Position numbers and translations under genes: made by a program. The notes beneath the pieces are model-generated. The model saw only the letters and a program-made list of their open reading frames with translations, did not search any database and had not been told where the DNA came from. Positions 25,443-50,129 of a stretch of DNA of 64,000 bases are shown here, piece after piece. The DNA is from an uncultured Acidimicrobiales bacterium (GTDB taxonomy: Bacteria > Actinomycetota > Acidimicrobiia > Acidimicrobiales > UBA10347), in contig CALKPY010000001.1 of the NCBI GenBank assembly GCA_937991435.1, positions 1 through 64,000 on the forward strand, in the 5' to 3' direction. How positions within the stretch are numbered: the first letter of the stretch is position 1; the number at the start of each line of letters is the position of its first letter.

Positions 25443-27041
25443 CTACGGAACTAGAGCGGCAGCCGCAGCTGGCACGTCGATGTCGCTGAAGTGTGTGACA
25501 GCCGCTGGGTAGACGCCGAAGGCGATCGTGGCCACTGCCGTGATTGCTATCGCTGCTTGCAGAGCAAACGGAACTCTGAGCGACGTCGTATCAAGCGAAT
25601 CGGGTGCTTTTTCGAACCACATGCGTGACGCCAAGCGCCCGTAATAGCCAAAGGCAATCACCGTGTTGATAGCCGCGAGACCGGCGAGCACGTAGGCCCA
25701 CCAGACATTTGCTTCGAGCAGTGCGGTGAACACCGAGAACTTCGCGTACCAGCCGCCGAGAGGCGGGATGCCAGCGAGCGACACGAGGAATACGGTCATC
25801 AGTACCGCCAGGGCTGGAGCCCATTGGAACAGGCCGTCAAAGGCAGCCACCTCAGCTGAGGCTGTGCGGCGGGTCACCGCCAAAATGATGGCGAATGCGC
25901 CCAGGTTCATCGCCGCGTAGATGATCAGATAGGTGACGACCGCGGAAGCCGACGTTTGTGCGATTTCTGCGCTTTCACCAGCGACGGTGAGTGCCGCAAG
26001 CATGAAACCTGCCTGGGCCACACCGGAATATGCCATCAGGCGAATCAGGTTGTTTTGTCGAAGCGCCGTGAGGTTGCCGATAGTCATAGTGAGCGCAGCA
26101 AGAATCCAAAGAGCTGGGCTGTACACGTCGCTACGGCTCCAGAAACCGACGAAGATCAGGTTCATAAGCGCCACAAAGCCGGCAGCTTTGGCGCCCACCG
26201 CAAGAAACGCGGTGATCGGCGTGGGCGAGCCTTCGTAGGTGTCAGGAGCCCACAGGTGAAACGGCACGGCCGAAACCTTAAATGCGAAGCCGACGATCAC
26301 AAGAACGATGCCGAGGCTGATGATTGCGGTCGACGCAGCGGCTTCGCCAATTGCCGCGTTGATTTCGACGAGAATCGTGCTTCCGGAAACACCGAACAAC
26401 AGCGACATGCCATAGAGCATGAGTGCGCTGGCGAAGACACCGTTTAGGTAGTACTTCAGGCCGGCTTCGTTGCTTTTAAGATCTCGCTTGCGCCACGTGG
26501 CGAGCAGGTACGCAGGAATCGAAAGCAGTTCGAGGGCGACGAACACGGTGATCAGATCGCGAGCCGATGCCATAACGAGCATGCCGAGCACCGACGACAA
26601 CAACATGCCGTAGTACTCACTCTCCCAATAGTCACCTTCGGCGATGTAGTTCGTCGACATCAGCACCACGAGGTAGGCAATGATGATGAACAGTGCTTTG
26701 AGCACAAGCGAGTAGCCGTCAACGACGTAGACCTCGCTGCCACCGAATGCCATGCGGGGGTTCGACGCCACACCATCAACGGCCAATGTCACGATCGGAA
26801 CAAGCACAGCCAAAAGGCCAAGCCCCGCGATCGCGGGTGTGATCGCTCGGCCTTTTTCAAGCAGGACGACATCGAGAAGCGTTACGAGAGCGCCCACCAC
26901 GAGCAGCGTGATCTCAGGCGCGAGAGCATGCCAATCGATAGGCGGGCGATTAAACGCCTCGGCAAACAAGCCGACGAACGAGACGAGCGAGATCACGGTC
27001 AGTTGCCAGATCCAAGGGCGCTGCGCAGATCGGCGAAGCAC
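25443..27041 (-). CDS. nuoN: NADH-quinone oxidoreductase subunit N (copy 1)
   Basis: 532 aa, polytopic; KVSAVPFHLWAPDTYEGSPTPITAFLAV. Confidence 0.92.
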   Translation of the reverse strand: MLRRSAQRPWIWQLTVISLVSFVGLFAEAFNRPPIDWHALAPEITLLVVGALVTLLDVVLLEKGRAITPAIAGLGLLAVLVPIVTLAVDGVASNPRMAFGGSEVYVVDGYSLVLKALFIIIAYLVVLMSTNYIAEGDYWESEYYGMLLSSVLGMLVMASARDLITVFVALELLSIPAYLLATWRKRDLKSNEAGLKYYLNGVFASALMLYGMSLLFGVSGSTILVEINAAIGEAAASTAIISLGIVLVIVGFAFKVSAVPFHLWAPDTYEGSPTPITAFLAVGAKAAGFVALMNLIFVGFWSRSDVYSPALWILAALTMTIGNLTALRQNNLIRLMAYSGVAQAGFMLAALTVAGESAEIAQTSASAVVTYLIIYAAMNLGAFAIILAVTRRTASAEVAAFDGLFQWAPALAVLMTVFLVSLAGIPPLGGWYAKFSVFTALLEANVWWAYVLAGLAAINTVIAFGYYGRLASRMWFEKAPDSLDTTSLRVPFALQAAIAITAVATIAFGVYPAAVTHFSDIDVPAAAAALVP

Positions 27042-28648
27042 GCCTCGCCAGCAGATTTCGCCATTTCAAGGCAATCGGCGGCGGTGCCGTTTAGGCCTTC
27101 GACTTTGAGTGACTTGATGACGGCCGGATCGGTCAGATCGAAGATGAGGTTCGGATAGAAGCCGAACACGACGATGAGAATCAAGAACGGCGTCCAAGCG
27201 ATCCACTCAAAGGCGGTTACATCGTGGATGTGCGGGTCGTTCTCAAACTCTTCAGTCGGTGTGCCAAAGGCCGTCTTCTGCACCATCCAAAGCAGGTAGC
27301 CGGCGGCGAGCACTGTGCCGAGCGCAGCCACGACCATATAGCCACGCCACAGGCCAGCAGAGAGAATTTCGGCGGGGTTGTAGGCGGCAAGGATTGCAGG
27401 GAACTCACCCCAGAATCCGGCGAGGCCCGGCAGGCCGAGCGATGCCATCGCTGCGAACGCGAGGATCCAACCCATCTTCGGACCCTGTAGCAACAGACCG
27501 CCAAGGCGGTTCATGTCGAGGGTGTGGTAGCGGTCCTTCATCGAACCGGCGACAAAGAACAACATGCCGGTGATCAGACCGTGCGCAACCATGCCGAACA
27601 CCGCAGCGTTGATACCGAAGTCAGTCAAGGTCGAGATGCCAAGCATGACGAAGCCCATATGGGCAACGGAGCTAAAGGCAATCAAGCGCTTCATGTCTTG
27701 TTGCGCCAGACAGCCGAGAGCGCCATAGATGATGCCGATCACAGCGAGCAGGCCAATGATTGGTGCCCAGGCCGCTGCTGCTTCGGGCAGGAACGGAATA
27801 GCGATGCGCACAAAGCCGTAGGTGCCGAGTTTGAGCAATACGGCGGCCAGGATCACTGAACCAACCGTTGGAGCCTGGGTGTGAGCGTCGGGTAGCCACG
27901 TGTGGAATGGGAACATTGGCACCTTGACGCCAAAGCCAATGAACATGCCGCCGAAAATCCACAGCTGAGCGGAACGGCCGATGACCGACGTTGCGCCCGT
28001 TGACAACGCCCGCATGTCAAAGGTGTTGACGGTGGCCGCGGCTGATTCGGCCACGGTTCCGTCGGCCAGAAAGAACAGCGCCAAGAAGCTGATCAACATC
28101 AGCGCTGATCCGAACAGCGTGTACAAGAAGAACTTGAGCGAGGCATAGCGGCGGTCGTCGCCACCCCAGACACCGATGAGGAAGAACATCGGCAACAGCA
28201 CAACTTCGAAGAAGACGAAGAACAAGATGAGGTCCTGGGCGATGAACGAACCGAGCATGCCGGTTTCGAGCACCAAGATCAGCGTCAAGAAGGTCTTGGG
28301 GTTGTGCGGCTCGGGGAAGTGCGCAAACGAATAGATAATGCACAGCGGCACTACACCGAGTGTCAGCAGTAGCAGCGGCAGAGACATGCCGTCGAGCCCG
28401 ACGATGTAGCGACTGTTGATGACATCGATCCACGACTTGTCGACGACGAACTGCAGATCACCTGCCGCCCCGTAGTCGAAGTTCGCGAGCAGGAGCACGC
28501 CGAGTACAGCGGCAACAAGAGTCGTGCCCAGGGCGACGGCTTTGTGCATTGATTCGTTGACGCGCGGAATGGCCATCATGACCAACGCGCCCACGAGTGG
28601 GATGAATGTGACGAGGGTCAGGCCCCAGTCGTCAATAAATGCTTCCAT
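26999..28648 (-). CDS. nuoM: NADH-quinone oxidoreductase subunit M (copy 1)
   Basis: 549 aa; KVPMFPFHTWLPDAHTQAPTVGSVILAAVLLKLGTYG. Confidence 0.95.
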   Translation of the reverse strand: MEAFIDDWGLTLVTFIPLVGALVMMAIPRVNESMHKAVALGTTLVAAVLGVLLLANFDYGAAGDLQFVVDKSWIDVINSRYIVGLDGMSLPLLLLTLGVVPLCIIYSFAHFPEPHNPKTFLTLILVLETGMLGSFIAQDLILFFVFFEVVLLPMFFLIGVWGGDDRRYASLKFFLYTLFGSALMLISFLALFFLADGTVAESAAATVNTFDMRALSTGATSVIGRSAQLWIFGGMFIGFGVKVPMFPFHTWLPDAHTQAPTVGSVILAAVLLKLGTYGFVRIAIPFLPEAAAAWAPIIGLLAVIGIIYGALGCLAQQDMKRLIAFSSVAHMGFVMLGISTLTDFGINAAVFGMVAHGLITGMLFFVAGSMKDRYHTLDMNRLGGLLLQGPKMGWILAFAAMASLGLPGLAGFWGEFPAILAAYNPAEILSAGLWRGYMVVAALGTVLAAGYLLWMVQKTAFGTPTEEFENDPHIHDVTAFEWIAWTPFLILIVVFGFYPNLIFDLTDPAVIKSLKVEGLNGTAADCLEMAKSAGEACFADLRSALGSGN

Positions 28649-28662
28649 GCTCCAAAGACCCC

Positions 28663-31167
28663 TCAGATGATGATGATCATGAGGCCCGCAAGCAGGGTCG
28701 CGCCTGCGAACATGATCGTTCCGTATTGCTGGACTTTGCCGGATGCCAGACGGCGCAGCTCGCCGCCCGCGCCTGACGAACCGGCGCCAGCCGAGTTGAC
28801 TGCGGTGTCGATGACGCCCTGATCGATGTGCTTATAGACGGCCTCTGCCGCCTGCACCGATCGCACACCGACTTGATCGACAGTTGCGTCGAGCAGATTT
28901 TCATGGGTCCAGTTAGTGGCCCATGCAAGTGGTTTCTTGACAAACGATGCAACGCCGACGCCGGTGCTCAGTGCAAGTCCGACAATGCCGAACACCACGG
29001 TGCCGAGCGACAAGCCCCAGGTGAGCGACGGTAGGAATGCTTGGTTCAGCCCGTTGTCGAGCGTGAAACCGAGAGCACTACCCGCCGCGAGACCGAACAA
29101 GCTCGCCACGATGCCGGCACCGACTGCGGGCACGGGTTTGCCGCTGTCGTAGATGTGATCGAGGTAGTAGCGATTCTTGAGCAGCGTGTGGCCGGCCTTG
29201 AGCACACTCGAGCGCGAGGTCGGGCCGTTGACCAGTTCAGTGGCCGCCGGGCTCTGGCGGTTGACCTTGACGAAGTAGTACCAATAGGCCGCTGCGACGG
29301 CCGAGAGCACCACGATCGTGGAGAAGATCGCCAAGGACCAGCTGGGATCTGCGTGGTTGATCTTGGGGAAGTATTTCGCGGCTGATGACGGTTCGACATA
29401 GTGGCCAAAGCGTTCGGTGAGCCCCTTTGGCAAGCCAAGGAAGCCAGGCGGCAGGTTCAAGAAACCAACGGTGACGGCCAAGAAGGCAAGAATGCGCAGC
29501 GGCCACAAGATGCGGGGCCCCGACTCGTGAGGGTCCCCGTGGTGCGCGTCGTGCGCATCGGCGTGACCGTGATCGTCATCGTGGTGTCCGCCACGGAACT
29601 CGCCGTAGAAGGTCAGGTAGATCACGCGGGTCATGTAGGCGGCTGTCATGGCAGCCGTGATCATGCCCATGATGAGCATGACGGTGTAGGCGCCGTTCGA
29701 GTGTGGTTTGCCCTCAAAGAAGCCCCAGCCACCGGTACCAACGAGAATCTCATCTTTCGACCAGAAACCTGCCAGCGGCGGCAGGCCAGCCAGCGCAATC
29801 GAACCGATGAGGAACGTTTTATAGGTCGTCGGCATGAACTTGCGCATGCCACCCATGTCGGTCTTCATGTTGAAGCTGTGCACCGCGTGGCTAACCGAAC
29901 CCGCACCCAGGAACAACAACGCCTTGAAGAAGGCGTGGGTGAAGAGGTGGAAGATCGCTGCGGTCCACGCACCGACGCCAAGGGCCAGGGCCATGTAGCC
30001 AAGCTGGCTGATCGTCGAATAGGCAAGGACTTTCTTGATGTCGTCTTGCACAAACGCCAGAGATGCGCCAACGAGGGTCGTGATGCCGCCGATTAGGGCG
30101 AGGGCGTTGATGGAGCTTCCGGCGATCGACAGGCCTTCGAAGAACACGCCATAGAGACGCGCCACGAGATAGATGCCGGCGACAACCATCGTTGCCGCGT
30201 GAATCAGCGCCGAAACAGGTGTGGGGCCAGCCATGGCGTCGGGCAACCAGGTGTGCAAGAAGAACTGGCCAGACTTCGACATCACCGCGGTGAGCAGGCA
30301 CAGCGCTGAGATCAACAGCAACGTGTGGCTAGTCGTGTGATCGATTGCCAGCTTATTGATGTCGATGATCGACCAGGTTTCACCGCTGGCGAAGAACAGC
30401 ACGATCATGCCAATGAGCAGGCCCATGTCGCCGACGCGGTTAGTCAAGAACGCCTTGAGCGCGGCATCGCTGTTGGCCTGGTCTTCCCACCAATGGCCAA
30501 TCAACGCAAAGGAGCAGACGCCCACCAGCTCCCAACCAACAATCATCTGGAGCGTGTTGGCGCTTGTTACGAAGAACAACATGGCAGCGGTGAACAGCGA
30601 CAAGAACGCGAAGTAGTGCGTGAATCGACGATCGCCTGCGACGTAATCGGTGCTGTAGATATGCACCAGCGACGAAACAAGGGTGACGACCGCGAGGAGG
30701 GTGACCGTGAGCCCGTCGGCCATCGTGCCAATCGTGAAGTTCACTCCTCCGTTCGACCACCAGGTGCGCTCCGATACAACCGCTTTGAGCCCGGCACCGT
30801 AAGCGCCTTCGCTTTCTTCTTCAGCGGCACCGAGAACTTCGCCAAAGGCCGAGGCCTGTTCGCCTGCCCCTTCGTGCGATTCGCATTCGTATTTACCTTC
30901 GGAGATCTCGACAGCCACGCAGTTGTCTGCCCGGTTGACTTCGCTGATCCACTGGGCCCCCGTGAGCAGCGACAGCACGAAGCATGCGAGCACGGCGGCG
31001 ATGCCGATCTCGCTTCCGCCTTTGGGCATGCGCTTGCCGAAGAACAAAATGATGGCGAAAGAACACGCCATGATCGCCGGAATGATCCACACGTTTTCGA
31101 GGAACCAGCCACCAGCTTGGATTGCGGCCGAGGGGCCTTCTGCTGCGAGGAATGCGTGCATGATCAA
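28663..31167 (-). CDS. nuoL: NADH-quinone oxidoreductase subunit L (copy 1), enlarged, with His/Asp-rich loop
   Basis: 834 aa; [27 protein letters not shown]; insertion between first TM helices; [21 protein letters not shown]. Confidence 0.94.
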
Positions 31168-31475
31168 CCCTTGAGGAGATCGACCTGGTGAAGGTCGATG
31201 CTCTTGCGGTTGCGGTAGATGGTCAGAACCATGGCCAAGCCAACGCCGACTTCAGCGGCGGCTACGGCAATAATGAACAAGGCGAACACTTCGCCAGGGA
31301 TTGCAGCGCCGACGTCTCGGTTGAATGCGCCGAAGGCCACAAGGTTGATGTTGACGGCGTTGAGAATGAGCTCGATCGACATGAGCACGAGCACCGCGTT
31401 GCGGCGAACAAGTACGCCGTAGACGCCAATGCAAAAGAGCACCGCGGACAGAAGCAGGAACTGAACGAGATACAC
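31164..31475 (-). CDS. nuoK: NADH-quinone oxidoreductase subunit K (copy 1)
   Basis: GTG start [39 protein letters not shown]. Confidence 0.93.
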
Positions 31476-31479
31476 AGCC

Positions 31480-32001
31480 CTACTCCTTTCGCGCCACGAC
31501 AATGGCGCCGATTAGTGCGGCGAGAAGCAGAACCGAGATGGCTTCGAAGGCCACAATGTACGTGCTGAAGATGGCGTCACTCACCTGTTGAACGGTCGTT
31601 TCTGACTGATCGAGAACCGCGATCTCTGAATCACCAGCGAAATCGATCACCGCATAGGCCATGACCAGCACCAACATGACGGCGGTCAAGATTGCTGGCC
31701 AGCGGTTGTCATGGTCGAGATTGTCTTCGCTGCCGACCTTGGCGCGGGTCAACATGATTCCGAATAGGAACAGCACGACCACAGCGCCGATGTAGACGAG
31801 CACCTGGGTGATGCCGACAAATTCGGCGCCGAGCAGCAGGAACTGTGCGGCAACTCCGGCGAGCACGACCACGAGATACAGGGCGGCGTGCACGATATTG
31901 CTCGACGTCACCACGCGTAAAGCCGCGTAGACCATGATCGAAGCGATCAGGTAAAAGAAGACGTTCTGGGCAACAACGGCCGCAAGTACAGCAGGCATCA
32001 T
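31480..32001 (-). CDS. nuoJ: NADH-quinone oxidoreductase subunit J (copy 1)
   Basis: 173 aa; [45 protein letters not shown]. Confidence 0.93.
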
Positions 32002-32534
32002 GTAGCAGGCACCTTGCGAACCTTCTGGTCTGCACCAGATTCGTATGCAGGGAACTCAGGAACAGTTTCCATCCAGTCACCAAGGCGCGACTTGTCGTGC
32101 AACAGATCTGCGATACGCATTTCGCTGAACTCGAATTCGGGGCTCCAAAAAAGCGCATCGAACGGACAAACATCAACGCAGATGCCGCAGAACATGCACA
32201 GTGCAAAGTCGATGTCGAAACGATCGAGCTTGTTCTTCTGGCGGGGTTTTCCGCCGGCGCGGCGAGGCGGGGCGAGTTCTTTGTGGCCCTCGATGTAGAT
32301 GCACCAGTCTGGGCACTCGCGTGCACACAGCATGCACGCCGTGCAGTTGTCGTCGTGCAGCGCAATAACGCCCCGGGCTCGTGTTGGTGGGGCCTCTTTG
32401 ACGTGCGGGTACTGGACCGTGTGTGCACCTTTTGAAGGAGCGGGCGGCGAGAACGGGCCACCGGGGAACACGGTCTTAAAGAATGTCTTGGCAGTGACCC
32501 TGAGGCCAACGAGCATGCCGGGCATCTTGGGCAT
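31998..32534 (-). CDS. nuoI: NADH-quinone oxidoreductase subunit I (copy 1)
   Basis: Two 4Fe-4S motifs CTACMLCARECP and CMFCGICVDVCP. Confidence 0.93.
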   Translation of the reverse strand: MPKMPGMLVGLRVTAKTFFKTVFPGGPFSPPAPSKGAHTVQYPHVKEAPPTRARGVIALHDDNCTACMLCARECPDWCIYIEGHKELAPPRRAGGKPRQKNKLDRFDIDFALCMFCGICVDVCPFDALFWSPEFEFSEMRIADLLHDKSRLGDWMETVPEFPAYESGADQKVRKVPAT

Positions 32535-33544
32535 CAGAGAGCCACCTTGAGGATTGCGGTGATCACGATATTGGCGAGCGCCAAGGGGATCATGAACTTC
32601 CAAGCGAGTCGTTGCAGCTGATCTTCGCGGAACCGTGGATACGTGATGCGGAACCAGAAGATGAGGAACGCAATCAGGATCATCTTGGCGGCGAGCACAA
32701 GCGGTCCGATGTAGTTCATGAATTCGGCGTTGGCATCGACAAAGGGAATTGTCCAACCCCCGAGAAACAGCGTGGCGCCGATTGCCGAGAAGATTGCTGC
32801 GGTGGCGAACTCGGCAATGAAGAACAACAAGAAGCGAATACCGGAGTACTCGGTGAGGAAGCCGGTGACGAGTTCAGACTCAGCCTGCGGCATATCGAAC
32901 GGCGGTTGGGTCAACTCAGCTTGTACCGAGACAAGGAACAAGAAGAACCCGATGAACTGCGGAAGAATGAACCACATGCCGAATTCGTTCTGCTTGTGCA
33001 CGATGTCGCTCAGATTCAGCGATTCGGCCATGATGACCACGCCGACGACCGAGAGCACGAGCGGAAGCTCATAGGCGATGAGCTGGCCGGCAGCGCGCAA
33101 GCCGCCGAGCAATGAGTACTTCGATGCCGAGCCCCAGCCCGCCATCAAGATGCCGATCACCGACACTGACGAGACAGCTAGCGCGAAGTAAATGCCGGTG
33201 TTGATGTCAATGAACGTGGCATCTGGGCCGCCGGGAAGCACCAGCACAAGCATGAACGTCGATACCAACACGACGAACGGCGCCGCAGCAAACACAAACC
33301 GGTCAGCTTTTGCCGGAAAGATGTCTTCTTTTTGCAGGAACTTGCCGAACTCAGCGAGCAGCTGAAGCTGGCCATACGGGCCGGTCTCCATGGGGCCGAG
33401 ACGGCTCTGCATAAAGCTCATCATCTTGAACAAGAACAGGTAGACGAGCGCGCCCGTTGGCAACAGCACAGCCACCAGGCCAATGACACCCTTGATGATC
33501 GTCTCTTGCCAATAGGCAAGTTCTATGGCGAGCGGGGTGAGCAT
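32534..33544 (-). CDS. nuoH: NADH-quinone oxidoreductase subunit H (copy 1)
   Basis: 336 aa; SVQAELTQPPFDMPQAESELVTGFLTEYSGIRF. Confidence 0.95.
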   Translation of the reverse strand: MLTPLAIELAYWQETIIKGVIGLVAVLLPTGALVYLFLFKMMSFMQSRLGPMETGPYGQLQLLAEFGKFLQKEDIFPAKADRFVFAAAPFVVLVSTFMLVLVLPGGPDATFIDINTGIYFALAVSSVSVIGILMAGWGSASKYSLLGGLRAAGQLIAYELPLVLSVVGVVIMAESLNLSDIVHKQNEFGMWFILPQFIGFFLFLVSVQAELTQPPFDMPQAESELVTGFLTEYSGIRFLLFFIAEFATAAIFSAIGATLFLGGWTIPFVDANAEFMNYIGPLVLAAKMILIAFLIFWFRITYPRFREDQLQRLAWKFMIPLALANIVITAILKVAL

Positions 33545-34740
33545 CAGCGGTCGATATCTCCGAGGATGAAATACAGCGAGGCCAAAATGGTCGCGATATC
33601 AGGAACGTAGACGCCTTCGAGTAGCCATGGAGCGATCGACATGTTCGAGAACGACGCGGTGCGGATCTTGACCCGGAACGGCGTGAGTTCGCCCTTGCTG
33701 ATCACGTAGTAGCCCATGACGCCGAGCGGGTTTTCGGTCTGTACGTAGGACTCGCCCGCGGGCACCTTGATGATGCGCGGCACCTTGGCCATGATCGGAC
33801 CGGTCGGCAAACCGTCGAGAATCTGTTCGACCATGTAGGTCGCTTCGCGCGTTTCTTGTAGCCGCACCCAGTACCGAGCGAACGAGTCACCGTCGGGATG
33901 GGTCCAGACTTTCCAGTCGAGGTCTTTCCAAGCGAGACGCGAGTCGCCATCGCGACGCAGATCCCAGTCGACGCCGCTAGCCCTAAGGTTGGCGCCACTT
34001 AGACCATAGGCCTTGCCCACCTCGGCAGGGATCACGCCAACGCCGCGGCAGCGCAGCTGAAAGATCTCGTTGCCGACGACGAGGTCTTCCATTTCGTCGC
34101 AGAAGTCACGCACTTTTTGCATGACTGACTTGGTCTCGGCAATCCAGCCCGCAGGCAGGTCGTCTTTGATGCCGCCGATGCGGTTGAAGTTCGGGTGGAA
34201 TCGACCGCCAGTAACGCTTTCGATCTGGTTAAGAACAAACTCGCGATCGCGAAAGGCGTAGAACACCGCCGTTACACCACCGAGTTGCACGGCCATATCG
34301 CCGAGGAACAACATGATGTTCGCAATACGACCCATCTCAAAGAGCGCCGTGCGAATCCATTGTGCCCGAGGTGGCGCTTCGACCTCCATGAGGTCTTCAG
34401 CGGCCAGAATGAACGGGACTTCGTTGGCGAAGCTGCCAACCCAGTCGATGCGGTTGACCAGTGTGGTCACCTGCGGGTACGTGCGAACCTCAGTCAGCTT
34501 TTCGTAACCGCGGTGCATGTAGCCCATGATCGGCTCGGCCTTGATGACCTGTTCGCCGTCGAGCTTGGCGACGATGCGCAAGGTGCCGTGTGTTGCTGGG
34601 TGCTGCGGTCCGATGTTGAGGGTCATGCCCTCGGTTTCGAGCTCGACGTTGACTCGAGCGTCGACGGCCTGAGCGGCGATATAGCGGAGTTGTTCGTTGT
34701 CGTTGATGTCGAGTTCGGCGGTGATGTGGTCAGTGGTCAT
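33544..34740 (-). CDS. nuoD: NADH-quinone oxidoreductase subunit D (copy 1)
   Basis: 398 aa; LNIGPQHPATHGTLR; EAPPRAQWIRT. Confidence 0.96.
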   Translation of the reverse strand: MTTDHITAELDINDNEQLRYIAAQAVDARVNVELETEGMTLNIGPQHPATHGTLRIVAKLDGEQVIKAEPIMGYMHRGYEKLTEVRTYPQVTTLVNRIDWVGSFANEVPFILAAEDLMEVEAPPRAQWIRTALFEMGRIANIMLFLGDMAVQLGGVTAVFYAFRDREFVLNQIESVTGGRFHPNFNRIGGIKDDLPAGWIAETKSVMQKVRDFCDEMEDLVVGNEIFQLRCRGVGVIPAEVGKAYGLSGANLRASGVDWDLRRDGDSRLAWKDLDWKVWTHPDGDSFARYWVRLQETREATYMVEQILDGLPTGPIMAKVPRIIKVPAGESYVQTENPLGVMGYYVISKGELTPFRVKIRTASFSNMSIAPWLLEGVYVPDIATILASLYFILGDIDR

Positions 34741-35441
34741 GATTCGATCGCCTCTGATTCAGCGACTGGGGTCTTCTCGGCGTCGTCGGCGCCGTCATCT
34801 GGCATGCCTTCGACATCGACGATTCCGGGCCAAGGCTTCACGCGCCGGGCGACCAAGGGATAGTCCTTGCGCATCGGGTTGCCCTCGAAACCACTTGGCA
34901 GGTACAGCGCCCGCAGGTCGGGGTGCCCCACGATGTCGATACCGAACATTTCCCACACTTCACGCTCGTGCCAGTTCGCACCAACGAATATTTCGAGCAG
35001 CGAGGGGATTGACAAATCGTCGTCAGGCACGTCGGCCTTGATGGTGACGCCCTGGTGCTCGCCGATCGAATACACCCGCAGCATCATCTGGAAGCGGCTG
35101 TCGCCGCCAGCGGTACCCGTTTCTTGTTCGCCTACAGGCTTTTCGTCGCGACCATGCACGACCCAGTCTTGTTCGGCTTCCATATCGCGGCCGAACGGTG
35201 ACGGAAGCCAGTCGATGGCCGAGATGAAGTCGAGCCAGGTCATGCCGAGTCGATCGGCGGCGAAACGGGCCGCTTCGACCCATGCGCTTCGATCGACCCG
35301 AATCCAGAGATCACGGCCGGGGATTATTTCGGACTCGATAAAGCCTTCGCCCAGGTGATCGGCAAAGGCTTTAGCGATGGCTTCTCGAACCGGATCGGTC
35401 TCGACGGCTTCTTGAGTCTCTTCAGCGGTATCTGCGCTCAT
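34737..35441 (-). CDS. nuoC: NADH-quinone oxidoreductase subunit C (copy 1)
   Basis: 234 aa; [40 protein letters not shown]. Confidence 0.94.
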
Positions 35442-35953
35442 GAGATCTCACCGCCGCCGACGACAATCGGGTCGCCTTTCCAGCGCTCTGCTGGGTCTTC
35501 GTTGTGAATCATTTCTTGCAGCAAGACGATGCCTTCGAGCAAGGCTTCTGGGCGGGGCGGGCAACCCGGCACATAGACGTCGACAGGGATGACCTGATCG
35601 ATGCCCTTGGTAACCGAGTAGCTATCCCAATACGGGCCACCGCAGTTTGCGCAACTGCCCATCGAGATGACGTATTTGGGGTCAGGCATCTGCTCGTACA
35701 ACCGAAGAATGGCCGGAACCATCTTGTCTGTCACCGTGCCGGAGATGACGACGAGGTCAGCTTGGCGGGGACTAGCCGGAAACGGGATTACGCCGAGACG
35801 CATGACGTCGTAGCGCGGGCTTCCGAACGCGGCACCCATTTCGAGCGCGCAACATGCCAAACCCCACTGGTAGACCCAAAGGCTGTATTTGCGGCTGATA
35901 TTGAGCAGCTTGGTCAATGACTTTGGCATCTTGCCGCTGTCGACGAGTCCCAT
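35438..35953 (-). CDS. nuoB: NADH-quinone oxidoreductase subunit B (copy 1)
   Basis: 171 aa; [57 protein letters not shown]. Confidence 0.96.
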
Positions 35954-35983
35954 CAGGTGTGCCCCTGTTCGTGAATCATCGTG

Positions 35984-36349
35984 TCAGATCCACCGCAGGA
36001 CGCCCTTGCGCCACGCGTAGAGGAGACCGAGCAAGAGGATGAAGATGAAGATGGCCATTTCGACAAGGCCGAAGACGCCATATGCCTCGAGACGAGTGGC
36101 CCACGGAAAGATGAAAACCGCCTCGACGTCGAACATGACAAAGAGCAGAGCAAAGATGTAATAGCGGATGTTGCTCTGGCCCCAGCCGGTACCGACAGGG
36201 TCAACGCCTGACTCGTAGTTGATGTACTTTTGAGCTTGCGGACGCGTGGGCCGAAGCAGTGAGCTGATGCCAAGAAGTGCCGTTACGAGAGCCACCGCAA
36301 GCAGGCCAAAGATGGCGACCGTCAGATAGCTGCGCAGGAACTCGGACAC
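35984..36349 (-). CDS. nuoA: NADH-quinone oxidoreductase subunit A (copy 1)
   Basis: 121 aa; YESGVDPVGTGWGQSNIRYYIFALLFVMFDVEAVFIFPWA. Confidence 0.95.
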   Translation of the reverse strand: MSEFLRSYLTVAIFGLLAVALVTALLGISSLLRPTRPQAQKYINYESGVDPVGTGWGQSNIRYYIFALLFVMFDVEAVFIFPWATRLEAYGVFGLVEMAIFIFILLLGLLYAWRKGVLRWI

Positions 36350-36438: not shown

Positions 36439-37437
36439 TCACCACTCGAGCACGAGAAAGCCGCCAAGACCCGCAGGGTCGGTCAGGGCCTGGGCTTCGT
36501 TAACCGCACTGCGGGCCGCTATAGCGGCCAAATCCCCGATGTGGGCACGGGTCCGCCAGACCTCGCGGGCGTGAGAAACCAGCTCTGCGATGCCATTGCG
36601 AGCCAACCATTCAGCCTGCGTTTCGACACGTACGGGGTGCGGCAGCTGGTCGACCGGCACATCGCACGTAATGTCGTGTGTTCCAAGACTGGCGAACGGG
36701 TCGCTACCGCGCTCGTGGTCTGCGTACGTGCGTAACCATGCGCCAATTCCACGATCTGCTAACTCCTGGGTCGTCGCCCCATAGTCAAAGGCGAGCACTC
36801 GACCCGACAGAGCGCGGGCGTGTTCGATCCACTGATGCGCCTGCACCGCTACTGGCACACGGGAGCCGACCACAGCTCGAATGTCGACCGCTGCCAACAA
36901 TTCGGGGGCCGGCAACCCGGTGGGAACAAGTCTTGGAGCATCGGTGCCGCCAGTTTCAACACCGAGAAGCCGCCAACCATCATCGAATCGTTCCGCGATA
37001 TCGAAGGCGAGATTGTCGAGCAACTCATTCGCCATGACGACATGGCACGGTTCATTGGGAAGCTCAGCCAGAGACGCAACAAACCCGGGCAGCTCGCCGT
37101 GAGTCGATCGCAACCGATCGGAGCGCTCAACCAAGGTGTAGTCCAAGGAATCGACACAGTCGGGCTTGGCTCGCAGCACGCTGCGGTACAGGGTGCCAAC
37201 GCCAGCACCGGCTTCGACCACACGAAACCGTGAAGGTCGGCCGACATCGCGCCATTCCTGATCAAGCCAACGTGCGATCACCGCGCCGAACAGCGGTCCG
37301 ACTTCAACGCTCGTGACGAAGTCACCCCGGCTTGTTCCCGCGTGCCCATGGGAGTGATAGAAGCCAGCGGGGCCGTACAGGGCGGCGTCCATGTAGTCAG
37401 CGAACAAGAGCGGTTGCTCGCGTTCGTGGTCAGGCAT
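36439..37437 (-). CDS. SAM-dependent methyltransferase, MidA/NDUFAF7 (COG1565, DUF185) family
   Basis: LLFADYMDAALYGPAGFYHSHGHAGTSRGDFVTSVEVGPLFGAVIARWL; VVEAGAGVGTLYRSVL; ANELLDNLAFDI. Confidence 0.85.
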   Translation of the reverse strand: MPDHEREQPLLFADYMDAALYGPAGFYHSHGHAGTSRGDFVTSVEVGPLFGAVIARWLDQEWRDVGRPSRFRVVEAGAGVGTLYRSVLRAKPDCVDSLDYTLVERSDRLRSTHGELPGFVASLAELPNEPCHVVMANELLDNLAFDIAERFDDGWRLLGVETGGTDAPRLVPTGLPAPELLAAVDIRAVVGSRVPVAVQAHQWIEHARALSGRVLAFDYGATTQELADRGIGAWLRTYADHERGSDPFASLGTHDITCDVPVDQLPHPVRVETQAEWLARNGIAELVSHAREVWRTRAHIGDLAAIAARSAVNEAQALTDPAGLGGFLVLEW

Positions 37438-37455: not shown

Positions 37456-38949
37456 TTATCGGCCGACGAGTACCGGGCTGGCGTCGCGCACAAGATCGAT
37501 TAGCGGGTCGGCGAAGATACCAAAGAACACCGTGAACACGACAGTGATGCCGACGACGATCGCAGCCGTAATCGGCACGTGTACGTCTTCGGTTTCGCCT
37601 TGGGCGTCGCCATACATGGCGAGCACAATCCGCAGGTACAAGAAGGCACCAACAACCGCCGAGACCATGGCGATCACACCGAGCACGTACGCCTCGGTTT
37701 CAATCGCGGCACCAATGACAAAGAACTTGGCCAGGAAGCCAGTAGTGAATGGAACACCGGCCTGAGCAAGTAACAAGATCGTGAATCCAAGTGCCAATGC
37801 AGGTTGGCTCTTGGCCAGCCCGCGGAAGTCTTCTAGGCCGGTAGCCGCGTCGCCGCGGCGAGCGACCACTGCTATGACCGCGAAGCTTCCGACAGCGATG
37901 AAGGTGTAGGCCGTCAAGTAGTACAACGCAGCCGACATGCCTTCAGTTGATGCCGCTTCGGCACCAACGAGGATGAAGCCAGCGTGACTGATTGATGAAT
38001 ACGCGAGCATGCGCTTGACGTTGTCTTGCACGATGCCGACAACCGCGCCGATGACCATTGACAGACATGCCAGCACGAAGAACATCGGTGTCCAGTCCTC
38101 GGCCAGACCGGCGAGAGACACGTTGAACACCCGAAGTAACCCAGCAAAACCAGCGACTTTGACGGCCGATGCCATGTACGAGACGACGGGGCTGGGTGCA
38201 CCGTGGTACACATCGGGGGTCCACGAGTGGAATGGCACCGCGGCAACCTTGAACCCAAGACCGACGAGCAACAAGGCCATTGCACCAAAGGCAAGACCGC
38301 GATCTTCGAGGGCGACCACTGAGTCACGAATGTGCGCGAGGTTCGTGCTGCCGGTTGCGCCATACATGAGGGCGATGCCGTACAAAAGAAACGCCGATGC
38401 GAACGCGCCGAGAATGAAGTACTTGAGCCCGGCTTCTTGAGACTCGACACGACGTAGGTGACTGGCGGCGAGAATGTACACCGCAATCGAGAGTGCCTCG
38501 AGACCAAGAAACAACACGATCAAATCGTTGGCGCCGGCCATGACAATGCCGCCGCTCGCCGACAACATGAGCAGCACGAAGAATTCTGCGCTGTTGATGT
38601 CTTCACGTTCAAGATAGTCGTGCGCGTAGAACGCGGTCAGCGCCACGGCCGAACCGATCAGACCTGTCAGAAGCAACGAAAAACCGTCGATTCCAAACGC
38701 TCCGGCAAGCGTGGAGAAACCCTGCGGATGGTCGTCATTGATCCGACCCCACTGAATTGCGGCGGCCACCATGGTGGCGACACCTATGAGTGAGGTGAAC
38801 ACCGATGGGGTGCGCGACGGAAGCCGATCGCTAAGCAGCGACCAGATGGTCAGAAAAATCAGCGATCCGCCACTCATAATGAGCAAGGGAGTCAGGCCAC
38901 CCCAGTCAACTGACGGGATCTCAACCGCGGTCTGCAAAAGCACGCCCAT
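37456..38949 (-). CDS. nuoN: NADH-quinone oxidoreductase subunit N (copy 2)
   Basis: 497 aa; KVAAVPFHSWTPDVYHGAPSPVVSYMASAVKVAGF. Confidence 0.94.
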   Translation of the reverse strand: MGVLLQTAVEIPSVDWGGLTPLLIMSGGSLIFLTIWSLLSDRLPSRTPSVFTSLIGVATMVAAAIQWGRINDDHPQGFSTLAGAFGIDGFSLLLTGLIGSAVALTAFYAHDYLEREDINSAEFFVLLMLSASGGIVMAGANDLIVLFLGLEALSIAVYILAASHLRRVESQEAGLKYFILGAFASAFLLYGIALMYGATGSTNLAHIRDSVVALEDRGLAFGAMALLLVGLGFKVAAVPFHSWTPDVYHGAPSPVVSYMASAVKVAGFAGLLRVFNVSLAGLAEDWTPMFFVLACLSMVIGAVVGIVQDNVKRMLAYSSISHAGFILVGAEAASTEGMSAALYYLTAYTFIAVGSFAVIAVVARRGDAATGLEDFRGLAKSQPALALGFTILLLAQAGVPFTTGFLAKFFVIGAAIETEAYVLGVIAMVSAVVGAFLYLRIVLAMYGDAQGETEDVHVPITAAIVVGITVVFTVFFGIFADPLIDLVRDASPVLVGR

Positions 38950-40607
38950 CAGTGATCGTCGCCTTCGTCTTTGGTTTCGCCATGGTCTTCGTCGCCATGG
39001 TCTTCGTCGCCATGTCCTTCAGAATCGCTGTGGTGGCCAATCGCATGCCAGCCGTGACCGGCCCGGCCCTGGTTGACCGGTTCTTCGAAGTCATCGACGT
39101 GGGTTTCGATGTGGGCGACGAGTGCGTCAACTGCTGGTTCCATGCGCTCGATCACCGGCTTCGGGTAGATGCCCATGAACACAATGGCGACGACGAACGG
39201 GACAAGAACTGCGATCTCTCGTGCCTTGAGGTCGGGCATCGTCGCGTTTTCGCCCTCGGCCGGACCGTGAAACACTCGCTGATAGGCCCACAGCAGATAC
39301 AGGGCGGCAAGAATCACGCCGGTTGTGGCGACGACTGCCCACCAGCGGTGAGCAACGAACGTGCCGGTGAGAATCAGAAATTCGCCAACGAAGCCGTTCA
39401 AACCGGGCAGGCCGATTGATGAAAGCATGACGACGGTGAAGAACGCTGCCATGATCGGCGCGGACTTTTGCAGTCCGCCAAGCTCAGAGATCATGCGGGT
39501 GTGGCGGCGGTCGTACATGAAGCCGACCAACAGGAACAATGCACCCGTTGACACACCGTGGTTGATCATCTGCAACAAGCCACCGGTGATGCCTTCGGTG
39601 TTCAGAGCAAAGGTGCCGAGCACGATGAATCCGAGGTGTGCCACCGACGAATAGGCGACAAGCCGTTTGAGGTCTTTTTGCATTGTGGCGACGATGGCGC
39701 CGTAGACGATGCCGATCACCCCGAGCGTCAGAAAGACCGGTGCCGCCCAGGTCGATGCTTCGGGAAACAGATACAAACCGAAACGCAAGAAGCCGTAGGT
39801 ACCCAGCTTGAGCATGACACCCGCAAGAATCACAGAACCTGCAGTTGGCGCTTCGGTGTGGGCGTCGGGCAGCCAGGTGTGTAGTGGCCAGATCGGGACC
39901 TTTACCGAGAACGCAAGAGCGAATGTCACAAAGACCCAGCGGGCCGCGTTGGTGCCCAGTGCCTGAGACTCGGCGATCTCGACGAGGTTGAACGTGAGCT
40001 CGCCGCCGGTAGCTGACCGGTGCAGGAACACCAGGCTCAGCATGCCGACGAGCATGAGCGCCGAACCGAGCATGGTGTAGAGGAAGAACTTCATCGCCGC
40101 GTATTGGCGGTTGCCGTGACCCCAACCAGCGATCAAAAAATACATCGGCACGAGAACGATCTCGAAGAACACAAAGAACATGAACAAGTCGAGAGCCATA
40201 AACACGCCAAGACAACCGGCCTCGAGCACCAGCAGCCATGCGAAATAGGGTTTGGCGTCGTGTTCGGGGTCGATGGCCAAGATGGCCAACGGAAACAGCA
40301 ACGCGGTGAAGACGACCAGCCATAGCGAGATGCCGTCGATGCCGGCGAGCCACTGAATGCCGACAGAATCAATCCAGGACTGTTGCGAGCCAAACTGGAA
40401 ACTCGCGGCAGCATCAGTGTCGAACTGCGTGACGAGCCACACACCGAGCGCTCCAACGAGCACAGAGGTGATCACCGCGAATGCCTTGGCGGTCTCTGCC
40501 CGTGAAGAAGGAACGAGCGCTATCAGCAATGCACCGATGACTGGCAAGGCGACCATGGCCGGAAGAAGCGGGAACCCGACGTCGGCCGCCAGGTATACGG
40601 CCGTCAT
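38949..40607 (-). CDS. nuoM: NADH-quinone oxidoreductase subunit M (copy 2) with His/acidic-rich C-tail
   Basis: Start [52 protein letters not shown]; tail GHHSDSEGHGDEDHGDEDHGETKDEGDDH. Confidence 0.95.
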   Translation of the reverse strand: MTAVYLAADVGFPLLPAMVALPVIGALLIALVPSSRAETAKAFAVITSVLVGALGVWLVTQFDTDAAASFQFGSQQSWIDSVGIQWLAGIDGISLWLVVFTALLFPLAILAIDPEHDAKPYFAWLLVLEAGCLGVFMALDLFMFFVFFEIVLVPMYFLIAGWGHGNRQYAAMKFFLYTMLGSALMLVGMLSLVFLHRSATGGELTFNLVEIAESQALGTNAARWVFVTFALAFSVKVPIWPLHTWLPDAHTEAPTAGSVILAGVMLKLGTYGFLRFGLYLFPEASTWAAPVFLTLGVIGIVYGAIVATMQKDLKRLVAYSSVAHLGFIVLGTFALNTEGITGGLLQMINHGVSTGALFLLVGFMYDRRHTRMISELGGLQKSAPIMAAFFTVVMLSSIGLPGLNGFVGEFLILTGTFVAHRWWAVVATTGVILAALYLLWAYQRVFHGPAEGENATMPDLKAREIAVLVPFVVAIVFMGIYPKPVIERMEPAVDALVAHIETHVDDFEEPVNQGRAGHGWHAIGHHSDSEGHGDEDHGDEDHGETKDEGDDH

Positions 40608-42550
40608 GCCTGAACTCCGAACCAGATCATGAGTGCAATGGCACCCAGAGCAATAAACACCGCATAGCTGCGCACCAGACCGTTCTGCAGCCGGCGAAGG
40701 AACTGACCGTCCCACCGAACTGCCGCGCCGATCTTGTTGACCGCTCCGTCAACGACGGAGCCATCAAATTTACTCAACAGAGCAAAGCCGGCACGACCGG
40801 GGCCGCCCATAAAGGCACTCACTGCCCGGTCATATCCCCAGCCATCGGCGACGATGGCTGGCGGTTCGGGCGCAGTAACCGTGTCGCTACCGCGGCGACC
40901 AAGGTAGGTCACCACCGCAGCGACGATTCCGACCAACGCGCACAGTGTGGCAACGATCGCGAGAATCCACTTGGTGCCACCTGAGGTGCTTCCGTGAAAC
41001 TCATTGCCGAGTAGCGACGGCTCGAGCCAGTGTTCGAAGAACTTGAGGTCCTTGCTGAATGGCAGATTGATGAACCCAGCCACAGCGGCGAGCCCAGCGA
41101 GCACCACCAGCGGAAGCGTCATCATCCACGGCGATTCGTGCGGATGGCGAGGTTCGAGTGGTTCATCACTGCTCACCCAGGCTTCGCCTGTGACTTCGTC
41201 GCGCCAGCGAGGCTTGCCGAAGAAGGTCAGCACCACAAGACGGGTCATGTAGAACGCCGTCAGCAGGGCGGCGACGAGCAGCAACACGAAGAGAACCTTG
41301 TTGGCGAAGATGTCGTCGTTTGCCCAGGTGGCAACAACAATCTCGTCTTTAGACCAGAAGCCGGAGAACGGTGGAATACCGGCAATCGCTAACCAACCCA
41401 CGATGAAGGTCATGGCTGTGACGGGCATGAATTTGGCCAGGCCGCCGTAGCGCTTCATGTTCTGGTCGTTGTTCATGCCGTGAATGACTGAGCCTGAACC
41501 GAGGAACAATAAGGCCTTGAAGAACGCGTGCGTCACCATGTGGAACAAGGCTGCGACATACACACCAGAGCCGACGGCGACGATCATAAAACCGAGTTGG
41601 CTCACCGTTGAATAGGCGAGCACCTTTTTGATGTCGTCTTGAGCAACAGCAATCGTCGCCGCGAACAGAGCGGTGAATAGGCCGACCCATGCAATCAGAC
41701 TTGGCGCCCAGTCGTGAGCCGCGGCCAGAATTGGGTTGATGCGAGCCAGCAGGTACACGCCGGAGGTGACCATGGTGGCGGCGTGGATGAGTGCCGATAC
41801 GGGCGTTGGGCCGGCCATTGCGTCGGGCAGCCACAGGTAAAGCGGGAACTGTGCAGATTTGCCACACGCACCGACAAACACGAGAAGTGCAATTGCGGTC
41901 GCTGTGCCGGCGGCGATTTCGCCACTGAACATGTCGCCGTACTCGATGCTTCCGAACGTAAAGAAGGCCAGGAACGTGGCGAGCATGAAGCCGAAGTCAC
42001 CAACGCGGTTCGTGACAAAAGCTTTCTTGCCTGCGCTGGCATTGGCTTCTTCGGTGAACCAGAACGAGATGAGGAAATACGAACATGCGCCCACGCCTTC
42101 CCACCCGAGGAACGTCAACAGCAAGTTGTCGCCGAGCACGAGCATGAGCATGGAGAACGCGAACAGGTTGAGGTAGACGAAGAACTTCGAGAAGTTCGGG
42201 TCGCCGTGCATGTAGGCGATCGAATACAGATGAATCAACGTGGCGATGCCCGTGATGAAGAGAATCATCGTTACTGATAACGGGTCGGCAAGCAGGCCGA
42301 AGCCGACATTGAAGTCGCCCGCGACTACCCAATCGAACAGGCCGACCTCGACAATGCGCTCAGACTCGTCGAGGCCGATGAGCCCGACGAACACAACAAC
42401 CGAAGCCACGAACGACGCGGCCATCGCGGCAGTAGCAAGCCAACCAGCGAGCGGTTCGCCCAAGCGGCGACCGGTCGTCAATAGGGCCACAAACCCCAGC
42501 AGTGGAAAGAGTGGAACGAGCCATACGAGCTCAGCAAGTGTCTGCATCAA
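40604..42550 (-). CDS. nuoL: NADH-quinone oxidoreductase subunit L (copy 2)
   Basis: 648 aa; [33 protein letters not shown]. Confidence 0.96.
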   Translation of the reverse strand: MMQTLAELVWLVPLFPLLGFVALLTTGRRLGEPLAGWLATAAMAASFVASVVVFVGLIGLDESERIVEVGLFDWVVAGDFNVGFGLLADPLSVTMILFITGIATLIHLYSIAYMHGDPNFSKFFVYLNLFAFSMLMLVLGDNLLLTFLGWEGVGACSYFLISFWFTEEANASAGKKAFVTNRVGDFGFMLATFLAFFTFGSIEYGDMFSGEIAAGTATAIALLVFVGACGKSAQFPLYLWLPDAMAGPTPVSALIHAATMVTSGVYLLARINPILAAAHDWAPSLIAWVGLFTALFAATIAVAQDDIKKVLAYSTVSQLGFMIVAVGSGVYVAALFHMVTHAFFKALLFLGSGSVIHGMNNDQNMKRYGGLAKFMPVTAMTFIVGWLAIAGIPPFSGFWSKDEIVVATWANDDIFANKVLFVLLLVAALLTAFYMTRLVVLTFFGKPRWRDEVTGEAWVSSDEPLEPRHPHESPWMMTLPLVVLAGLAAVAGFINLPFSKDLKFFEHWLEPSLLGNEFHGSTSGGTKWILAIVATLCALVGIVAAVVTYLGRRGSDTVTAPEPPAIVADGWGYDRAVSAFMGGPGRAGFALLSKFDGSVVDGAVNKIGAAVRWDGQFLRRLQNGLVRSYAVFIALGAIALMIWFGVQA

Positions 42551-42856
42551 CTAGCCCCTCAACACCGAGATGTCGTCGGCGTTCACGCCAGTACGACGTC
42601 GCATGATGGCCACAATGATCGCGAGTCCAACCACAACCTCGGCTGCAGCCACGACAAGCACGAAGAACACCGAGATCTCGCCGCCAAGGTCATTTAGCTC
42701 GGCGCCAAAGGCAACAAATGTCAGGTTGACAGCGTTGAGCATGAGTTCGACGCACATGAACATGACCAAAGGATTGCGACGAACCAGCAGGCCGACTGCG
42801 CCGATGGCGAAGAGAATGGCGGCAAGCACGAGGTACCAGGTACTGGTGAGTTCCAT
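42551..42856 (-). CDS. nuoK: NADH-quinone oxidoreductase subunit K (copy 2)
   Basis: 101 aa; [32 protein letters not shown]. Confidence 0.95.
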
Positions 42857-43575
42857 CAGCTATCCCCTGCGGTTTCTTCGGCAGCGGGATCGGCATCGTC
42901 TGTGGCGTCGGCGGCGACGGCCGACTTCGTTCGTCGGCCGGGAATGACGAGCGGGTCGAGTTCGGTTCGCACCGGCATCGCAGCAAGCTCGCCTTTAGGG
43001 CGGCGGCTCAACATGACAGCGCCGACGACAGCGATGGTGAGTAGCAACCCAGTGATCTCAAAGGCAAAGACGTAGTCGGTGAACAGCACCCGGCCGAGCT
43101 GGTCGATGTTCGGAACGATCTCACCGCCGAACTCTTGGTCATCAGTCAACAACGATGTCGCCGACTGTTCGACAGCGGTTATGGAATCGACTTTGGGTGC
43201 GGTGACCGATTCAGCACCAGTCGCTCCCCCGTCGACACTTACGGCGACAAAGATGACGCTCAGGGCCAACACGCCGAGTCCAACGACCGCAGCGACCGGT
43301 CGTTGACCGGCGATCGGTTCGATCTTGAGATCGTCAGACTGGTCAACACCGAGCAACATGATCACGAACAGGAACAACACGACAATCGCGCCGGCGTAGA
43401 CCACGACCTGCACGGCGGCGAGGAACTGAGCATCTTGGTTCAGGAACAGCACCGCGATCGAGAACAGCGCCATGACCAACATGAGCGCCGAGTGCACCGG
43501 ATTGCGGGCGAGCACCAGGCCGAGTGCACCGACGATTGAAAACGCACCGGCGATAAGGAAGACAAAGAGATCCAT
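42856..43575 (-). CDS. nuoJ: NADH-quinone oxidoreductase subunit J (copy 2)
   Basis: 239 aa; [35 protein letters not shown]. Confidence 0.94.
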
Positions 43576-44252
43576 CAGTGATGACCCCCGCCTTGGTCGT
43601 TTGTGGCGTCGAACTCTACGTCGCGGTGCGTAGCTGCGATGTCAGCGGTTTGGCCGAGCTCGGGCTTGCGCACTCCGTGACCGAGTTCGCCCGACCAGGC
43701 AACCTTGCCTACATATTCAGCGGCGCCGCTTGGCGAGGTCGCGCGCATCCACGCTGAGGTGTGTTCTTCTTCGCCGGGACGCCAGTCTTCCCAGGGGAGA
43801 TGCTGGGGCATGCCGTCATCGTCAACGACAAGTTCATCTTTGGTGTAGATGGCATCGAGCCGGTTCGTAAACGAGAACTCGAACATTTTCGATTCAGTGA
43901 TGGCCTGAGTCGGACAGGCTTCGACGCAGAGATCGCAGTGGATACAGCGCAGGTAGTTGATCTCGTAGACGAACCCGTAGCGCTCGCCTGGTGAAACCGG
44001 GTCATCGACTGGGTTGTCAGCGCCGCGCACATAGATGCATTTGGCTGGACAGACACCGGCGCACAACTCGCACCCGATGCATTTCTCCATGCCGTCTTCG
44101 TAACGGTTCAGCACATGACGGCCGTGCATACGCTCCGGCTTTTCGCGCTTCTCGTCATCCCAGCGGCCACCTTTGTAGTCGCCGGTGACCCGCTCGTCGA
44201 AGAGCTTGCCGAATGTCATCTTGAAGCCTTCGAGGCCCTCAAAGATTCCCAT
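43575..44252 (-). CDS. nuoI: NADH-quinone oxidoreductase subunit I (copy 2)
   Basis: 225 aa; [18 protein letters not shown] and [16 protein letters not shown]. Confidence 0.95.
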
Positions 44253-45496
44253 CAGTCGAATCCTTCTCCTGCGAGACGCTTGCGTTTGCCAGCGTTGATG
44301 GCAGCGTTGAGCAGTGCACCCATGGTGAGCAGAACAACAAAGCAGATCACCGCAACCAGTGCACGATTCCAGTCTTTGTCGCGTGCCACATCGAGTGCTG
44401 CGAGTGCGAGCAACCAGCCGAGAGACAGCGGGATCAGCAGCTTCCAGCCGAGATCCATGAGTTGGTCATAGCGGAACCGAGGAAGCGTGGCTCGGAACCA
44501 GACGAACGTGAAGCAAAAGGCCACGATCTTGACGAGGAACCACAAGATGCCCCAAAGCCAGCCGACGCTCTCGAAGAACGGAATTGGTCCGTCGGGGCCG
44601 CCGAAGAACAGCGTGACCATGACCGCCGACATGGTGATGACGTTCATGTACTCGCCGAGAAAAAACAGCGAGAAGCGAAGCGATGAGTACTCGGTGTGGA
44701 AACCACCAACGATTTCTTGTTCGGCCTCGACGAGGTCAAACGGCGGACGGTTCAGTTCCGCAGTCGTGGCGATCAGGAACACGATGAATGGAATGAAGCC
44801 GGTAATCCACAGATTCCAGTTCCAGCCGTCGGCTTGCCCAGCGACGATGTCGTGGGTCGAAAGGCTGCCAGATTTGATGAGCACAGCGACAAGCGACAGG
44901 CCAAGCGCTGCTTCGTAGCTGACCATTTGAGCGGTGGCGCGAACTGAACCAAACAGCGGGTACTTGGAGCCTGATGACCAACCGGCGAGCATGATTCCGT
45001 AGACGGCCATCGACGACATTGCGAGCACGAACAAGATGCCAATCGGCGGGTCAGCCAGTTGCAGGTTCGTGGTGTTACCGAACCATGTGACGGTGCCGTC
45101 CGCGTTGTCGAAGTCGCCGCCAATGGGCACGACGGTGAAGATCAAGAACGCAGGAATCAGGGTCAGGTACGGCGCAAGTCTGAACACGAATCGATCGCCG
45201 CGTTCGGGAATCAGATCTTCTTTGAAGGTCAGCTTGAGGCCGTCAGCCAGTGTTTGGAATAGCCCAAAGGGACCAGCGATGTTTGGGCCGACCCGGTTGG
45301 TCATATCGGCGTGCAGCTTGCGTTCGAACCAGATGATCAACATGACGCTGATCAGCAAGAGAACGAAAGCCACCGCGACCTTCACGAGCACGATTAGAAC
45401 TTCTTCGAGACCGACGCCACCGACGAACAGCGGGTCGACAGCCAACGGCAACAATGACGAGATCCCCGTGTTTTGAACAACTGCGTCTCGAATCAC
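44252..45496 (-). CDS. nuoH: NADH-quinone oxidoreductase subunit H (copy 2)
   Basis: 414 aa; [32 protein letters not shown]. Confidence 0.96.
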
Positions 45497-49403: not shown

Positions 49404-50008
49404 CAGGCTTCGCCTTCTTCAACTGGCCACCATGATGGCGCAGACGGATCATCGACCATGGCGTTGCCTGCGGCGCGATCTTCGGGAATTACTTGCCGAC
49501 TCAGCGCCAGCGTGCCGTGTGGTGGGATGTAGACCGAACCGTCACGCAGGCCGCTGACTAGCGCATCGAATCCGTCGGCGTCAACCTTGTTCATATAGCG
49601 GTAGTTCACCTGCAGGCACGGCGCCTCGGTGCATGCTGCGATGCATTCGACGCCTTCAAAACTGATTTGATCTTCGGTCACGCTGCCCGGACGCACGCCC
49701 AGCGTGTGTTCCGCGTGTTCGAGTAGCTCTTCGGCGCCGAGAAGGTGACACGAAATGCCGTGGCAGATGTTGATGCGGAACTTGCCGACTGGCGAGCGTT
49801 TGAACATCTCGTAGAACGAGCAGGTGCCAAGCACTTCAGCGGGCGTGACTTCGACAAGCTCTGCGATGTGGGTCATGGCGTCGTCGGTTACCCAGCCGTG
49901 TTGTTCTTGGGCGAGATGCAGCAGCGGTATCAGAGCGCTTTTCTTGCGCGGATACCGACCGAGAATTTCGTGCGCGATGCGCAAGCTGGCTTCGGAGAGT
50001 CGAGCCAT
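49403..50008 (-). CDS. nuoE: NADH-quinone oxidoreductase subunit E
   Basis: 201 aa thioredoxin-like 2Fe-2S protein; GTCSFYEMF; INICHGISCHLLG; CIAACTEAPCLQVN. Confidence 0.95.
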   Translation of the reverse strand: MARLSEASLRIAHEILGRYPRKKSALIPLLHLAQEQHGWVTDDAMTHIAELVEVTPAEVLGTCSFYEMFKRSPVGKFRINICHGISCHLLGAEELLEHAEHTLGVRPGSVTEDQISFEGVECIAACTEAPCLQVNYRYMNKVDADGFDALVSGLRDGSVYIPPHGTLALSRQVIPEDRAAGNAMVDDPSAPSWWPVEEGEA

Positions 50009-50029
50009 CAGAAACTCACCTCAGTTGCG

Positions 50030-50119
50030 GATTCAGGCGAATGCCGAAAGGGCGAGCAGGCTTGCGAGCCCGGAGATTCAGGCGAATGCCGAAAGGGCGA
50101 GCAGGCTTGCGAGCCCGGG
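50030..50119. repeat. 45-bp tandem duplication (2 copies, 44/45 identical) between nuoD and nuoE
   Basis: gattcaggcgaatgccgaaagggcgagcaggcttgcgagcccgg[a/g] repeated head to tail at 50030-50074 and 50075-50119. Confidence 0.95.
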
Positions 50120-50129
50120 AAAACTGCCA

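Follow-up and report, generated by a model that had tools for sequence, protein, structure and literature searches.

A MidA/NDUFAF7-family gene between two complex I operons of an uncultured Acidimicrobiales bacterium, and the arginine-type NuoD as its probable partner

Introduction

Human NDUFAF7 methylates the arginine of the HRGxE motif in the NuoD homologue of complex I (PMC3829151). The target residue corresponds to Arg85 of the bovine and Arg121 of the Yarrowia protein, and the HRGxE arginine is dimethylated in mammals, in two yeasts and in Nqo4 of Paracoccus (PMC3750175, PMC3829151, PMC8042128). The idea that the role is ancient in bacteria has thus been published before (PMC3750175). 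In E. coli the arginine is present and unmethylated (PMC3750175). Thermus has a threonine in Nqo4, and the same space is taken up there by an arginine of Nqo6, which is homologous to NuoB (PMC3829151, PMC3750175, PMC8042128). The effect of the methylation, apart from that of the arginine itself, has been described as unknown (PMC8042128).

A role of alpha-proteobacterial MidA was proposed earlier (Cell Rep 2018, as cited in PMC9006661), and the function of prokaryotic MidA has been described as inferred in silico only (PMC12455994). What is new here is not a bacterial role of MidA but a rule about which of two complex I paralogues it serves; a literature search that took in few subscription journals returned no paper linking bacterial COG1565 genes to nuo or stating this rule. 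The gene that we describe lies in a 64,000-nucleotide stretch of DNA from an uncultured Acidimicrobiales bacterium (the window), between a 14-subunit and an 11-subunit nuo operon, whose products are marked below as, for example, NuoD14 and NuoD11.

Results

A MidA homologue between two complex I operons

The coordinates of the locus are collected in Table 1. midA and all the nuo genes are encoded on the minus strand; read on the plus strand, 36439-37437 is interrupted by stops. midA is the single PF02636 gene found in the whole genome assembly. Its product matches PF02636 (Methyltransf_28/COG1565) with an E-value of 2e-29 and 103 bits, against a curated cut-off of 23.3 bits, over profile positions 1-238 of 249, and its sequence matches in the PDB are the COG1565/MidA structures 4f3n, 1zkd and 5ztz. 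An AlphaFold model (pLDDT 91) was built from the window protein aligned with 22 homologues, which share 26-47% identity with it. Its top Foldseek matches are the Dictyostelium MidA structures 5zu0 and 5ztz (E 3e-22 and 5e-22; TM 0.79-0.80 on the query). MidA/COG1565 structures occupy the range from 3e-22 to 2e-19, and other methyltransferases follow at about 4e-4. Every column that is invariant across the 23 homologues is retained in the window protein; in the SAM-binding motif E75 and G77 are invariant and G79 and G81 nearly so.

Table 1. Features of the midA locus, with positions in the window
Feature	Position	Strand	Basis or remark
midA (COG1565/PF02636, NDUFAF7 homologue), 332 aa	36439..37437	minus	Pfam, PDB sequence matches, AlphaFold, Foldseek
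SAM-binding motif EAGAGVGTL, MidA residues 75-83	37189..37215	minus	conservation in 23 homologues
NELLD motif, MidA residues 137-141	37015..37029	minus	N137, E138, D141 invariant in 23 homologues
14-subunit operon nuoA-N, complete, upstream of midA in transcription	37456..53091	minus	
nuoN of 14-subunit operon	37456..38949	minus	
nuoD of 14-subunit operon, Thr type, predicted non-substrate	50130..51428	minus	motif GYLHTGMEK
Thr instead of target Arg, NuoD14, codon ACG	51168..51170	minus	
nuoB of 14-subunit operon	51983..52741	minus	ORF; true start probably near 52585
Arg codon at switch position, NuoB14	52316-52318	minus	
11-subunit operon nuoABCDHIJKLMN (no EFG), downstream of midA in transcription	25443..36349	minus	
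nuoA of 11-subunit operon	35984..36349	minus	Pfam PF00507
nuoB of 11-subunit operon	35438..35953	minus	
Thr codon at switch position, NuoB11	35735-35737	minus	
nuoD of 11-subunit operon, Arg type, predicted substrate	33544..34740	minus	motif GYMHRGYEK
Arg77 of HRGxE, NuoD11, codon CGC, predicted methylation site	34510..34512	minus	site per PMC3750175, PMC8042128

The window protein thus shares with human and Dictyostelium NDUFAF7/MidA (5ztz, 5zu0) the PF02636 fold, the SAM motif and the NE..D motif, as well as the presence of a NuoD homologue with the HRGxE arginine, which in the window is also genetically linked. Unlike these proteins it is bacterial and shorter (332 aa, compared with about 400), and its identity to the Dictyostelium protein is about 22%; across the solved MidA/COG1565 proteins its identity is low, at 22-26%. 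COG1565 proteins from Rhodopseudomonas (1zkd) and from Burkholderia (4f3n, 4g67) belong to this family and have its fold, with E-values of about 1e-20. Sequence and fold together bear out the MidA/NDUFAF7 assignment that had been made from the DNA alone.

The gap between the nuoN14 stop and the midA start is 18 nt. The sequence-only reading, which gave no strand, had correctly placed midA after nuoN, at 19 nt, and upstream of nuoA of the 11-subunit operon; the latter position is confirmed by an 89-nt gap between the midA end and the GTG start of nuoA11. A promoter scan over 36250-37600 found nothing. Since midA lies 18 nt behind the 14-subunit operon, whose NuoD is of the threonine type, it may be expressed with a complex that it is not thought to modify. 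A candidate NuoN-MidA fusion elsewhere (a long open frame of 920 aa, G061) was rejected, its excess length being an out-of-frame reading over nuoN.

The downstream operon holds nuoABCDHIJKLMN without nuoEFG, the gene set of the actinobacterial 11-subunit complex I. Upstream of the 14-subunit operon, the genes at 53094-56600 resemble a cytochrome bc complex, with c-type haem motifs at 54380-55726 and a Rieske-like protein at 55740-56600.

A reciprocal arginine/threonine switch in NuoD and NuoB

The sequence-only reading had named both NuoD paralogues as candidate substrates. The HRGxE arginine is found only in NuoD11; NuoD14 has a threonine, and a compensating arginine stands in NuoB14. Only NuoD11 could therefore be methylated at the known site, which leaves one candidate substrate, not two. 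The reciprocal residues of the Thermus type (Thr in Nqo4, Arg in Nqo6) are present in the 14-subunit operon only. Unlike the Thermus-type enzyme, this complex shares its cell with one of the Arg/Thr type; conversely, and unlike described NDUFAF7/MidA systems, the window MidA coexists with a second complex I that has no target residue.

The switch is reciprocal well beyond the window. Among 111 locus entries in which both residues were read, some genomes being included twice through overlapping loci, NuoD/NuoB pairs are Arg/Thr in 61, Thr/Arg in 48 and Arg/Trp in 2, and none is Arg/Arg or Thr/Thr.

We consider it probable, with good confidence, that MidA is an assembly factor that most likely methylates Arg77 of NuoD11 and not the equivalent 14-subunit site. 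As a predicted SAM-dependent protein arginine methyltransferase, MidA would modify Arg77 next to the N2 iron-sulphur cluster, by analogy with symmetric dimethylation, and the modified NuoD11 could then dock on NuoB. The corresponding position in the 14-subunit enzyme would be spared, as NuoD14 has the threonine and NuoB14 supplies the arginine.

Co-occurrence of midA and arginine-type NuoD within the class

midA is present in 100 of the 119 genomes of the window's class. NuoD types were read with a DNA pattern that misses variants; once such misses had been resolved, arginine-type NuoD was read directly in 98 of the 100 genomes with midA. The other two are G039, which has the 11-subunit operon with the NuoD motif beyond the contig end, and the fragmented G091, where arginine-type NuoD was not detected. 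Seven genomes (G009, G017, G028, G032, G067, G071, G111) had appeared to carry midA without arginine-type NuoD; it is present in them, and AGR codons or pattern misses account for the appearance. Among the 19 genomes in which midA was not found, 16 have threonine-type NuoD only. Two with arginine-type NuoD have contigs that stop short of the expected midA position (G024, G038), and G092 has a complete arginine-type 11-subunit operon with no midA behind it.

The association has a Fisher p of 6e-16, a value that overstates the evidence, because the genomes are related and the pattern needs only about three changes, one of them forced by supported branches, on a NuoD14 tree of 30 genomes. Moreover, midA lies in the operon in this class, and its co-loss can therefore be a single deletion. 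One clean case of co-occurrence is a within-genus contrast (G035 versus G073).

These counts bear on whether MidA might act on both complexes, either by modifying Arg77 of NuoD11 together with some other residue or subunit in the 14-subunit enzyme, or by serving both as a chaperone without catalysis. The 18-nt gap behind nuoN14 speaks for such a double role, as does the conservation of the nuoN14-midA order across four species of the genus. Yet the genomes of the class with a threonine-type 14-subunit complex only are without midA (16 of 16 detected, the fragmented G091 apart), and in other families of the class midA accompanies the 11-subunit operon; we regard action on both complexes as quite improbable.

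Displacement of midA in the window's genus

Within the class, midA and arginine-type nuoD are on the same contig in 65 cases. In 64 of them midA shares the strand of nuoD and lies downstream of it, mostly directly behind nuoN11; the sole upstream case is the window. In its genus, unlike other actinobacterial 11-subunit operons, midA precedes rather than follows. The order of 14-subunit operon and midA is common to four species of the genus, and nuoA11 comes directly after midA in three of these four. The arrangement is no assembly accident, as it recurs in four species, and its presence in three species besides that of the window indicates that midA moved in this lineage. That the two operons had swapped their nuoHIJKLMN blocks was considered as the cause and rejected: the blocks of relatives match the window block of the same type best, and it was therefore midA that moved, not the blocks. 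In the fourth species (G316; L229, L230) about 8 kb of other genes lie between midA and nuoA11.

A placement peculiar to one genus, when relatives have midA behind nuoN11, could be a neutral leftover of local rearrangement that tells nothing of function beyond family membership. The survey described below weakens this explanation, which we hold to be highly improbable, since linkage recurs in differing positions in at least four phyla.

Linkage and co-occurrence outside the class

In six actinobacterial family groups (f40, f41, f52, f61, f64, f79), arginine-type nuoD lies near midA, with the remaining 11-subunit genes elsewhere. The relocated nuoD and midA are seen in either orientation, and in G267 they are about 8 kb apart. 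nuoC may accompany nuoD in f40, where G138 has it beside nuoD and midA. The remaining operon in the Streptomyces-like f52 and the five other groups is nuoABC-HIJKLMN, without nuoD (L136-L143, L154, L170, L206-L215). Elsewhere, midA precedes nuoA in Nitrospira and some Chloroflexota, lies 2.5-7 kb from arginine-type nuoD in eight Chloroflexota, and stands by ndhH or behind ndhC-K-J in two cyanobacterial genomes. Most of 80 named midA loci have no nuo gene nearby.

Explaining the linked state on a MidA tree with 122 rows takes 12 changes, five of them forced; the Chloroflexota rows were mostly chosen for being linked, and the tree therefore counts origins of linkage, not its frequency. A survey of COG1565-nuo linkage, proposed with the sequence-only reading, thus finds it recurring in at least four phyla, with nuoD alone or nearly so in the six actinobacterial groups. 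The role on NuoD that had been read from the bacterial linkage gains support from this recurrence, for one substrate rather than for two.

Co-occurrence was also read outside the class, where some of the arginine-type motifs counted may be hydrogenase relatives. In Chloroflexota, genomes with midA have arginine-type NuoD in 38 cases and the threonine type only in six, while those without it have 19 and 39, respectively. For other Actinomycetota, among the matches listed, the corresponding numbers are 32 and one with midA, and 12 and 17 without. No threonine-only motif was found among 44 genomes with midA from several phyla, 38 of which matched the pattern; these matches are nearly all of the arginine type, and G339, which is of neither type, looks like chance. 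Genomes with midA and without detected arginine-type NuoD, as read with a pattern that variants can escape, are G091, G201 and six Chloroflexota, in which only the threonine type was detected (G387, G419, G424, G443, G459, G467; L322-L326). The opposite combination, with arginine-type NuoD but no midA, is common: it occurs in 19 Chloroflexota, 12 Actinomycetota, G092 and E. coli, and the arginine therefore does not require MidA. midA nearly implies arginine-type NuoD; the converse fails, as in E. coli.

Might MidA instead methylate another protein or DNA, its linkage reflecting only shared regulation with respiration? A preliminary report describes DNA methylation by Wolbachia MidA (PMC12455994), and the genomes with midA in which arginine-type NuoD was not detected, like the many midA genes unlinked to nuo, would fit a different substrate. 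That the pairing of midA with nuoD persists after nuoD has left its operon argues against it, as does the arginine, present wherever the motif of a linked nuoD was read (the window's genus apart, where both types flank midA), and the activity of NDUFAF7 is established on this same site (PMC3829151). We therefore consider another substrate unlikely. At the level of gene content and position, the surveys support arginine-type NuoD as the probable partner of MidA, with exceptions and with phylogeny only partly controlled.

Implications and sequence variants

A cell with two complex I enzymes, only one of which carries the arginine, offers a built-in control, in which loss of midA should hit one complex only. 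More generally, bacterial complex I may fall into two classes by the arginine next to N2: where NuoD carries it, maturation would often depend on MidA; where NuoB carries it, MidA would be unnecessary; and in cells with both complexes, such as this one, MidA would be a paralogue-specific assembly factor, through which the level of the 11-subunit enzyme might be adjusted separately from that of the 14-subunit enzyme. We give this reading about an even chance. Linkage and co-occurrence also provide a simple criterion, read from sequence, for predicting which bacterial complex I enzymes should be methylated.

Variation around the switch was also seen. The nuoD beside midA in the f41 family (L154, L170) reads HRAAEK rather than HRGxEK, with the arginine kept. 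GYMHRGFEK, an arginine subtype with phenylalanine behind HRG (L216, L217), occurs mostly without midA (G128, G242, G260, G268, G277, G314), G156 being the exception; in this it is unlike GYMHRGYEK, HRGAEK and HRGHEK. In several Chloroflexota (L314-L317), the nuo operon contains nuoF and nuoG, which stand between nuoH/I and nuoJ.
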